A stretch of 48,833 nucleotides of DNA from Kiritimatiellia bacterium (GTDB lineage Bacteria; Verrucomicrobiota; Kiritimatiellia; RFP12; UBA1067). Shown in pieces: positions 28,092 through 37,859 of this stretch; the first letter of the stretch is position 1; the number at the start of each line of letters is the position of its first letter. The stretch covers positions 1 through 48,833 of the forward strand of contig JAFSTA010000021.1 of assembly GCA_017450695.1 (NCBI GenBank). Direction: 5' to 3'. The translations under genes and the position numbers were made by a program. The notes beneath the pieces are model-generated. The model did not search any database and was not told the origin of the DNA. It saw only the letters and a list, made by a program, of their open reading frames with translations.

Positions 28092-29048
28092 TTAGTGCCG
28101 GAAGAGTGTGCTGACGGATCGGTTCTCGTGGATTCGCCGGATTGCCTCGCCCAGCACGCCGGACACGGAGAGCGTGGTGATCTTGGTGGGGATGTTGCGA
28201 GACCGCAGATCCGACCGCAGCGGAATCGTATCCGTCACGATCAGCTCCGTCAACCCGGTCTCCCCCTCCAGACGTTCCACGCCCTTGTCCGTCAGCGGGA
28301 TGTGCGTGACTGCGGCGCGTATGGAAACGGCGCCCCTGTCCCGCAGCATCTTCGCCGCCGCGCAGAGCGTTCCGCAGGTCGCGGTCATGTCATCGATCAT
28401 GATGACATCGCAACCCGACACATCACCGACCACGGTGAATGCATCCACATCCGCGTCTCCCAACCGCTGTTTCGCCACAATCGCCAGGTCCGTTCCCAGC
28501 ATTTGTGAGTAGGCATAAGCCGTCTTCGCCCCTCCGGTATCGGGCGATACGACGATCGGCTTGTGCAGCTGTAGCTCTCGCAGGTACTTCACCAATACCG
28601 GCGTGGCGTGCAGGTGGTCAACGGGAATATCGAAAAATCCTTGGATTTGCGCCGCGTGCAGATCCATCGTGAGGATCCGGTCGGCGCCGGCGGTCACCAG
28701 CAGGTTGGCGACGAGTTTCGCCGTCAGCGGGACGCGCGGCTGGTCTTTGCGGTCCTGGCGGGCGTAGCCGTAATACGGCAGGACGGCGGTGATGCGGGCC
28801 GCCGACGCGCGTTTCGCCGCATCGATCATGATCAGCAGTTCCATCAGCTTGTCGTTGGGCGCGACGCAGATCGGCTGCACGATGAACACGTCCTTGCCGC
28901 GCACCGTCTCCTCGATCTTGACATGGATCTCACCGTCGAGGAACTGATGAATGGTGATGCTCCCCAACTGCCCTCCGAGATACTGCATGATTTTATCGGC
29001 CAACGGCGGGTTCGCCGTTCCCGTAAAAACAATCAAGTCATCTGCCAT
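28092..29048 (-). CDS. prs: Ribose-phosphate pyrophosphokinase
   Basis: The 318-residue product makes PRPP from ribose 5-phosphate and ATP, feeding nucleotide and histidine synthesis (pyrE and hisI lie in this window). The ATG at 29048 follows TGGAG by 7 bases. Motifs: 'GTANPPLADKIMQYLG', 'FLDGEIHVKI', 'LPYYGYARQDRK', 'TMDLHAAQIQGFFD' and the PRPP-binding loop 'IMIDDMTATCGTL', whose ATCGT replaces the more common DTAGT. The tRNA-Gln gene lies 38 bp upstream. Confidence 0.97.
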   Translation of the reverse strand: MADDLIVFTGTANPPLADKIMQYLGGQLGSITIHQFLDGEIHVKIEETVRGKDVFIVQPICVAPNDKLMELLIMIDAAKRASAARITAVLPYYGYARQDRKDQPRVPLTAKLVANLLVTAGADRILTMDLHAAQIQGFFDIPVDHLHATPVLVKYLRELQLHKPIVVSPDTGGAKTAYAYSQMLGTDLAIVAKQRLGDADVDAFTVVGDVSGCDVIMIDDMTATCGTLCAAAKMLRDRGAVSIRAAVTHIPLTDKGVERLEGETGLTELIVTDTIPLRSDLRSRNIPTKITTLSVSGVLGEAIRRIHENRSVSTLFRH

Positions 29049-29086
29049 GATTCGCTCCATCGCTCTCCAACAAAAAAGGACGCAGC

Positions 29087-29160
29087 TGGTTGCCCGAGGT
29101 GGACTCGAACCACCTCAAACAGCGTCAAAGGCTGCTGTGCTGCCATTACACCATCGGGCA
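29087..29160 (-). tRNA. tRNA-Gln (anticodon TTG)
   Basis: This is a 74-nt cloverleaf on the minus strand. The acceptor TGCCCGA pairs with TCGGGCA, the discriminator is A, and CCA is encoded. The D arm is GTG…CAC. The anticodon stem GCAGC/GCTGT encloses CTTTGAC with TTG at positions 34-36, which reads CAA. The T arm carries GGTTCGAGTCC. Its first 15 bases overlap the 3' end of ispE. Confidence 0.95.
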
Positions 29161-30042
29161 AGTATGCGCCAAAACATTCCAAATGCCGTCGGCCTCCAAC
29201 CGCCGGCAAATCTCCTCACCCTGCGCACGATCCCGAACCAGACCGAACACCGAGGCACCGCTCCCGGAGAGCAGCACGCCCAGGCACCCGACCCGGCGAA
29301 GCGTCTCCGACAACCTCGCAATCGCCGGATACCCCTCGAACGCAGCCGCCTCCAAATCGTTGTGCAGAAGACTGGCAGCCCGTTTCACATCGCTTGCACG
29401 GATAGAGAAAGCCATATTTTGCACCATTTTAGGGGGAGTAGTCAAGCCCGATTTCCATCTGCTGAAAATTTCCGCCGTGGAACAATGGATGCCGGGATTG
29501 GCGATCACCAGGTCGAAGCCGCGCACCGGCCCGTCAAGCGCCAACCGATGCACCCGTTCTCCGCGCCCTTCCATCAGTACCGTCCCGCCCAGCACCAGCG
29601 CGGGAATGTCGCTGCCCAGCTCCGCGCCGAGTGCGGCCAGTTCCTCGTCTGGCCTCCGCAGTCCCCACAACTCGTTGAGTCCCCGGATCACACCCGCCGC
29701 GTCGCTGCTGCCGCCGCCCATGCCGCCGCCCACGGGGATGCGCTTGCGGATGTGGATGCGTACGCCGGCGCGGACACCGTACCGATCCTTCATCAGCCGC
29801 GCCGCGCGCATGGCGAGATTCTTTTCAACGGGTCCGATCTGCACCGCGCTGATCCCGCGATCCGTCGTGAGCGTGAGGGAAAAGACGGCTGGCGTGCGCG
29901 TGAGGGTGATCGTGTCGCTGAGGCTGACCGGCATCACGATGCTGCGCAGGTCGTGGTATCCGTCCGGCCGTATCCCCAAGATCTCCAGCGTCAGGTTGAC
30001 TTTGGCGTGCGCCTCGATCGTTATTTCGTCTCTCACATTCAT
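29146..30042 (-). CDS. ispE: 4-diphosphocytidyl-2-C-methyl-D-erythritol kinase
   Basis: The 298-residue GHMP kinase of the non-mevalonate isoprenoid pathway. Residues near the N-terminus 'AKVNLTLEILGIRPDGYHDL' and the ATP-binding 'IPVGGGMGGGSSDAAGVI' (~103-120) are diagnostic; 'LLSGSGASVFGL' is the third GHMP motif. The last residues C-P-M-V and the TAA stop lie inside the tRNA-Gln gene. The start ATG at 30042 has no clear ribosome site. Confidence 0.95.
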   Translation of the reverse strand: MNVRDEITIEAHAKVNLTLEILGIRPDGYHDLRSIVMPVSLSDTITLTRTPAVFSLTLTTDRGISAVQIGPVEKNLAMRAARLMKDRYGVRAGVRIHIRKRIPVGGGMGGGSSDAAGVIRGLNELWGLRRPDEELAALGAELGSDIPALVLGGTVLMEGRGERVHRLALDGPVRGFDLVIANPGIHCSTAEIFSRWKSGLTTPPKMVQNMAFSIRASDVKRAASLLHNDLEAAAFEGYPAIARLSETLRRVGCLGVLLSGSGASVFGLVRDRAQGEEICRRLEADGIWNVLAHTCPMV

Positions 30043-30194: not shown

Positions 30195-30228
30195 ACACGG
30201 ACGCGACGGGGCGCGTCCCTCCCGCTAC
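30177..30228 (+). repeat. REP-like module (family C)
   Basis: GCCCTCATTTCCATTCCC, then GGACGCG-ACGGGG-CGCGTCC forming a 7-bp stem, then CTCCCGCTAC. The hairpin GGACGCGACGGGGCGCGTCC also occurs at 24830-24851. Confidence 0.6.
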
Positions 30229-30303
30229 CAAACCACTAACTACCTAACCACTAACTACCTAACCACCTAACCACCCAACCACCTAACCACCCAACCACCT
30301 AAC
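30229..30303. repeat. CTAACCACC-type low-complexity tract
   Basis: About nine degenerate CTAACCAC(C) / CTAACTAC units run into the plsC 3' end; the plsC stop codon (30299-30301) lies within the tract. Similar short tracts are at 24859-24892 and 37796-37830, always beside other repeat modules. Confidence 0.8.
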
Positions 30304-37718: not shown

Positions 37719-37800
37719 GGTTGAGGCCTTAGGGAGTCGTGAATAATCGATAGCTATCGAATGCGATCGACTGCAATCGATTGCAATCGATTGTCCAACC
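37719..37800 (-). repeat. Composite GCAATCGATTG / CACGACT module (family D), reverse copy
   Basis: The minus strand reads GGACAATCGATTGCAATCGA, TTGCAGTCGATCGCATTCGA, TAGCTATCGATTATTCACGA, then CTCCCTAAGGCCTCAACCTA. It is joined on its left by TTAGGTAGTTGGGTGGTTGG. Confidence 0.75.
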
Positions 37801-37859
37801 ACCCAACTACCTAACTACCCAACCACCGAACCTTGAACTATAGGTACGGCAGACCGATG

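Follow-up and report, generated by a model that had tools for sequence, protein, structure and literature searches.

Overlap of ispE with tRNA-Gln in a bacterial class, and a predicted promoter for a tRNA-Gln–prs unit within the ispE coding sequence

Introduction

How is a protein made, and its message ended, when the stop codon lies inside a tRNA? The question is raised by a 48,833 nt stretch of the draft genome of a Kiritimatiellia bacterium (contig JAFSTA010000021.1; this whole stretch is termed the window), in which ispE, coding for 4-(cytidine 5'-diphospho)-2-C-methyl-D-erythritol kinase, runs into a tRNA-Gln on the same strand. An earlier note on this DNA had described the overlap and proposed that RNase P cleavage at the start of the tRNA would take the stop codon off ispE mRNA and thereby couple tRNA maturation to ispE expression. 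Related layouts are known. In mitochondrial tRNA punctuation a coding sequence runs into a same-strand tRNA and tRNA processing sets the message end. In E. coli, operon mRNAs are reportedly cut by RNase P, an observation attributed to Li and Altman in 2003. The coding sequences of these messages are not known to share bases with a tRNA. An internal prs promoter is also present in this organism within ychB (ispE). Unidirectional overlapping genes can form by loss of a stop codon (PMC3887535).

Results

ispE ends within tRNA-Gln

Gene order on the minus strand of the window is an acyltransferase-like gene, ispE, tRNA-Gln(UUG), prs, a bL25/Ctc gene and pth, the first of these scoring 71.5 bits with TIGR00530, under the cut-off of 102.95. 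The ispE coding sequence (29146..30042, minus strand) comprises 298 codons and a stop, and its product matches NCBIfam TIGR00154 with 216.8 bits (cut-off 138.7) over residues 7-280, both the GHMP N and C domains being matched. As a recognised IspE, it is ruled out as a chance open reading frame. ARAGORN detects a single tRNA in the window, tRNA-Gln(ttg) at 29087-29160 on the minus strand, and the Rfam tRNA match (61.7 bits, E 1.4e-12) places its 5' end at 29160; the anticodon is TTG and the CCA is encoded, at 29089-29087. The 15 nt at 29146-29160 are shared on the minus strand: the last 15 nt of ispE, TGC CCG ATG GTG TAA, are tRNA nt 1-15, the C-terminus reads ...HTCPMV* and the TAA stop (29146..29148) occupies tRNA nt 13-15 in the D arm. 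The same-strand overlap described in the earlier note is thus confirmed by ARAGORN, Rfam, the open reading frame and TIGR00154. prs, coding for ribose-phosphate diphosphokinase (28092..29060, minus strand), begins 26 nt 3' of the tRNA.

The 5.0-Mb draft genome yielded 45 tRNAs, with a single copy each of tRNA-Gln with the TTG anticodon and tRNA-Gln with CTG. For ispE one match was obtained in this genome, in which a tmRNA is also matched (140 bits). In a survey restricted to frames of at least 100 codons, seven same-strand frames enter one of the 45 tRNAs, and a Pfam match is observed only for that of ispE (328 codons); the six next longest frames, having no Pfam match, were dropped as further cases.

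The overlap is conserved within the class

An ispE match was obtained in 56 of the 60 nearest genomes. A tRNA-Gln was called 3' of ispE in 45 of the 57 loci from these genomes, and the two genes overlap in 45/45. One of the 12 remaining loci, L057, reaches the contig end inside the tRNA after a TAG at the same place, and was therefore set to overlap by hand. Across the 101 distinct class loci obtained with a class sample added, a set of our choice made up of loci with kinship codes and 10 named loci, three of which were lost as duplicates, 80 overlap (10-122 nt), nine have a gap (3-128 nt) and 12 are without tRNA-Gln, the last meaning that no tRNA-Gln was called on the same strand within ∼1.2 kb of available stretch, with some contigs ending sooner (L317 after 60 nt). 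Recurrence in many genomes rules out assembly error as the source of the overlap. ispE and tRNA-Gln are conserved same-strand overlapping genes. The gene order also extends downstream, prs being seen in 76 of the 89 overlapping loci with >450 nt available there, duplicates included.

The named relatives are metagenome bins of Kiritimatiellae, 'Verrucomicrobia' and 'Lentisphaerae'. The ispE ends of two are identical to those of genomes from the family of the window (L115 to L045, L117 to L061), and those of others are identical to class genomes; the class sampled is therefore probably Kiritimatiellia. In the rest of the phylum, tRNA-Gln was found 3' of ispE in 0/39 loci (L265-L303), the available stretch being short in two. 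Outside the class, overlap was observed in L130, L177 and L187, in 6/22 linked loci of a sample centred on a gammaproteobacterium and in 3/18 of a sample centred on Pyrinomonas, in which L369 is the L187 place again. Stops in these overlaps fall at tRNA nt 8-10 or 19-21, or behind the tRNA in L177. From these positions, the ispE/tRNA-Gln overlap probably arose more than once.

Changes at the ispE end were also seen among loci without the tRNA. In five family members (L077, L081, L082, L084, L089) the IspE alignment ends near residue 267-271, ∼27 residues short. In L077 and L081 the ispE TGA is followed by the apparent start of a pth-like frame in an ATGA overlap, which suggests that the intervening stretch was lost. 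In the class sample, 70/154 genomes gave any match to the IspE of the window, several of them weak, and many members may be without the kinase.

The stop codon drifts with the reading frame

Overlap lengths in the class loci are predominantly 44 nt (25 loci), 15 nt (25 loci) and 50 nt (19 loci), the others being 10, 37, 77, 83, 86, 95 and 122 nt, apart from L057 with its contig end. The frame of the window stops at tRNA nt 13-15 with TAA or TAG. In a frame one base off, TGA or TAG is encountered at tRNA nt 42-50, a stop used by over half of the overlapping loci in the class; where this stop has been lost, the open reading frame continues through the whole tRNA including the CCA (L056, L062, L069, L076, L083, L086, L088, L124, L134). 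The third frame is used by L066, stopping at a TGA in the anticodon loop, and by L118, stopping at a TGA at tRNA nt 8-10. Thus, all three frames relative to the tRNA occur, and the overlapping loci inspected have an in-frame stop either within the tRNA or beyond it.

In a quick tree of moderate support, in which the outgroup does not form one clade and the order of events is therefore a suggestion, the one-base-shifted frame lies deep in the class and that of the window is derived in its family. Gapped loci (family f7, L199, L160) appear in three places inside overlapping groups and the gaps therefore seem to have been regained from an overlapping state. L056, with its overlap of 122 nt, is still scored as lacking the tRNA in this tree; it was corrected by hand in the set of 207 genes used below.

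Coding continues to the tRNA junction

The codon preceding the tRNA is Thr in 17/17 family members, with A, C or T as the third base. Four-fold degenerate sites of the last codons vary about as elsewhere, a comparison resting on two columns in the last eight codons of the family set, and a conserved promoter or leader directly before the tRNA was rejected on this basis. The alignment column of T294 directly adjoins the tRNA in 76 of 83 overlapping loci, although alignment ends tend to be drawn flush. In the AlphaFold model of the IspE of the window the last strand covers residues 288-294 (mean pLDDT 94), and in that of L119 it covers residues 285-291, just before the tRNA-encoded tail, which forms a two-residue bridge only and has a pLDDT of 43 in its last five residues. 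With the last modelled strand ending there and no residue between the T294 column and the tRNA in those 76 loci, the tRNA appears to start at the point where the IspE fold is complete, and just supplies the stop.

A predicted promoter within ispE

The earlier note suggested checking whether the tRNA has a promoter of its own inside ispE. Synonymous variation along ispE drops in the block 80-99 codons ahead of the tRNA, in the family set (0/5000 random draws as low), in f29 (0/5000), in order relatives (0.008, four columns) and in f3 (0.041). The promoter candidate was singled out by this synonymous-site test only; an earlier scan had listed the same site. In the window it consists of a predicted -35 box, TTGACT (29440..29445, minus strand), which encodes Leu200-Thr201 of IspE, and a predicted -10 box, CAAAAT (29416..29421, minus strand; promoter scan and family alignment), with a spacer of 18 nt, located ∼285 nt upstream of tRNA-Gln. 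The family alignment reads TTGAC(T/G), 18 nt, then CATAAT, CATACT, AATAAT or CAAAAT, L036 being the exception in its -10 box among the other family members.

Conservation carries the claim rather than the window alone. In 207 distinct ispE genes, kept after exclusion of duplicates, genes shorter than 600 nt and loci in which no stop was reached, TTGAC is present at -345..-225 in 109/120 genes linked to tRNA-Gln versus 5/87 unlinked genes. Synonymous shuffles yield a mean of 29.5 and a maximum of 41 for the linked genes, and 6.2 and 12 for the unlinked genes; in five other blocks of the linked genes TTGAC occurs 5-13 times. Given TTGAC, the -10 match is 4.27 of 6, compared with 3.50 (maximum 3.63) in synonymous shuffles. 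Mean best promoter score is similar with overlap (9.77, n=83), a gap to 150 nt (10.1, n=20) or a larger gap (10.18, n=17), and is 7.91 when no tRNA-Gln is called (n=87). The boxes have left an imprint on the protein: Leu occupies aligned residue 200 in 107/120 linked IspE proteins, encoded by TTG in 106/107 compared with 21% gene-wide, versus 6/87 unlinked proteins (TTG in 4/6), and while the loop alignment behind these Leu200 counts is uncertain, the TTGAC counts are independent of it. In the AlphaFold model the Leu-Thr dipeptide falls in an inter-helical coil, where model confidence is lowest (191-210 blocks, pLDDT 81 and 77).

Outside the class, TTGAC is observed in 28/31 linked loci, in records from Myxococcota, Thermodesulfobacteriota, Nitrospirota, Omnitrophota, Zixiibacteriota, Acidobacteriota, Elusimicrobiota and others. 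The consensus is TTGACA, 17 nt, TA..AT; as it was built only from TTGAC-bearing loci, the -35 box is given and the -10 box is the informative part. L184 (Geobacter) matches 12/12 bases of the promoter consensus. Sigma-70-like hexamers spaced by 16-18 nt are above chance for the set of 120 linked genes, with a weaker signal in three further samples. A sigma-70-type promoter thus seems, from comparative evidence, to lie inside the ispE coding sequence, and the linked versus unlinked TTGAC counts suggest that tRNA-Gln and prs probably have their own transcript.

Extent of the promoter signal

Taken alone, the predicted promoter of the window matches 9 of 12 bases and is not significant (p 0.283 in synonymous shuffles), and the promoter scan of the window, with two sites versus 0.9 expected (sd 1.0), is not above chance. 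Gene by gene, p 0.05 versus synonymous shuffles is attained by 62/120 linked and 2/87 unlinked genes. Synonymous lows also occur elsewhere, at codons 20-59 in f29 (0.045, 0.019), 40-59 in the order set (0.047) and 20-39 in f3 (0.0098), the last being stronger than the f3 promoter block. TTGAC is absent in 11/120 linked genes. Four of these (L067, L070, L079, L118) carry GTGACA-18-TATAAT in the same position, a pattern that would fit perfection of the -10 box alongside weakening of the -35 box, and a fifth carries TTGCAA-18-TATAAT.

TTGAC counts in three additional phylum samples (centres L129, L184 and L187) were 12/22, 18/24 and 12/18 for linked loci and 1/8, 2/4 and 5/12 for unlinked loci, respectively. 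Pooled, this is 42/64 versus 8/24 (Fisher p 0.008), and comparison of best scores gives a Mann-Whitney p of 0.11. The 64 linked loci include three sample centres already in the first set (L310 = L129, L339 = L184, L369 = L187). With >700 nt in view, TTGAC is present in 40/58 loci with tRNA and prs, 0/2 with the tRNA alone, 5/8 with prs alone and 2/13 with neither. The promoter therefore goes with the tRNA-Gln/prs unit, and not clearly with the tRNA alone. The arrangement of ispE followed by prs with the internal TTGAC kept and no called tRNA-Gln was seen in L384, L386, L340, L363 and L390. On supported branches there are six independent pairs, of which 4.4 agree on average and none opposes (median p 0.0625). 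E. coli K-12 ispE has no TTGAC in the region, the best match being 9 of 12 at -188; prs is present, with no tRNA annotated between the two genes.

Discussion

We propose, with a probability of about 0.72, that the 3' part of ispE harbours a nested tRNA-Gln–prs unit with its own internal promoter and an RNase P-processed leader, and that the tRNA supplies the ispE stop. A sigma-70-type promoter at a protein loop would start a short transcript ∼250 nt upstream of the tRNA, covering tRNA-Gln and prs, from which RNase P would remove the leader to yield tRNA-Gln. IspE would be made from a second, longer transcript with its start upstream of ispE. In the class ancestor the spacer between ispE and the tRNA may have shrunk to nothing and the ispE stop been lost, the frame since ending wherever the tRNA offers an in-frame stop, or behind it. 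On the long transcript, the RNase P cut at the 5' end of the tRNA would leave the message without a stop and so end further IspE synthesis. Translation would therefore have to precede the cut, with cut messages left to tmRNA. Loss of the long message would be tolerable because tRNA-Gln would be independent of it.

As to the regulatory proposal of the earlier note, the sequence and the known cleavage site support the part that a cut at the tRNA 5' end would strip the ispE stop from transcripts containing both genes. A useful coupling of tRNA maturation to ispE expression is unsupported, as the stop drifts, gaps recur and the tRNA has a predicted promoter of its own. If coupling exists it would be negative, since the cut message has no stop. 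In its selected form, RNase P cleavage at the tRNA switches off IspE synthesis and isoprenoid synthesis follows tRNA maturation. Such selection would account for retention of the overlap in most class loci and for its presence in L130, L177, L187 and the linked loci of two further samples, but the frame varies, overlap ranges from 10 to 122 nt, the fixed geometry that we take as its mark is absent with gaps in 9/101 loci, gaps recur, several family genera lack the tRNA at this place and transcription from an internal promoter would free the tRNA from such coupling. We consider it unlikely; the drifting stop and frame favour an overlap that is tolerated rather than useful. Similarly improbable is a bolder extension in which an old ispE-internal promoter, kept across several phyla, wrote Leu-Thr into an essential enzyme whose gene, in this class, also lends its last codons to a tRNA; competition between IspE translation and tRNA-Gln excision on long transcripts would then switch the cell between making isoprenoids and supplying tRNA-Gln/PRPP.

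Of the other explanations, the one that comes closest, although still doubtful, is that the internal promoter serves prs with tRNA-Gln as a passenger. Retention of TTGAC in loci with prs alone, its scarcity where neither gene follows and its absence from the two loci with the tRNA alone are consistent with this, but in the first set TTGAC is still present in 18/24 loci with the tRNA and no prs seen, some of these stretches perhaps being too short for prs. A single transcript from a promoter upstream of ispE, covering ispE, tRNA-Gln and prs, would fit the compact gene order, prs following in the majority of overlapping loci, and would require TTGAC...TA..AT to reflect protein constraint on the Leu-Thr loop. 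This is improbable, slightly more so than selected coupling, as the 87 unlinked genes show no conservation of Leu-Thr, linked genes encode the leucine almost invariably by TTG and TTGAC is not reproduced by synonymous shuffles. Least probable of all is a mitochondria-like scheme in which the ispE 3' end is generated by RNase P cleavage and the protein is completed through poly(A) addition or ribosome rescue, the tRNA stop being unused. The unconserved frame relative to the tRNA and the tmRNA of the genome are in its favour; against it, loci with a one-base overhang have T, C or A immediately before the tRNA, so that poly(A) would not always make a stop, and poly(A)-completed stops were rejected as a general rule on these grounds. 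IspE is held to be an essential enzyme and tmRNA tagging, which marks proteins for decay, would act against it.

The nested tRNA-Gln–prs unit resembles known systems in part. With mitochondrial punctuation it shares a coding sequence entering a same-strand tRNA and processing that would define the message end, but it differs in the full stop in or behind the tRNA, the use of all three frames and the apparent internal promoter for the tRNA. Like the E. coli operon mRNAs, a long ispE transcript would be a message with an RNase P cutting site. The ychB/prs region of E. coli shares with the window a prs transcript starting within ispE, as proposed here, and differs in K-12 by having neither a tRNA annotated between the genes nor TTGAC in the region. 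In a limited set of literature, represented by titles and abstract openings, nothing was found on ispE with tRNA-Gln or on a bacterial coding sequence ending inside a tRNA, nor any paper on the promoter internal to E. coli ychB. As far as the available text of each extends, PMC3848588 and PMC11143913 contain no description of an overlap of the ispE/tRNA type. The stop-loss overlapping genes of PMC3887535 are like ispE in that the upstream gene uses a stop inside the next same-strand gene, and differ in that the gene downstream of ispE is a tRNA, a fold-fixed RNA excised by RNase P, and not a protein gene.

The ispE region seems to be a clear natural example of three functions, those of protein code, promoter and tRNA, in one stretch, in which the effect of a promoter on enzyme sequence is countable across phyla. 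The layout also offers a way to test what bacteria do with a message that loses its stop to tRNA processing. It may matter for annotation as well: coding sequences overlapping a tRNA are dropped or shortened by common pipelines, and ispE may therefore be wrongly missing in genomes with the overlap.

Two repeat arrays were also observed in the window: ∼ten copies of an 8-base unit (ACCTAACC) at 30227-30303, between the acyltransferase-like gene and ispE, and an array of AACCACCCAACCACCG at 37797-37832.
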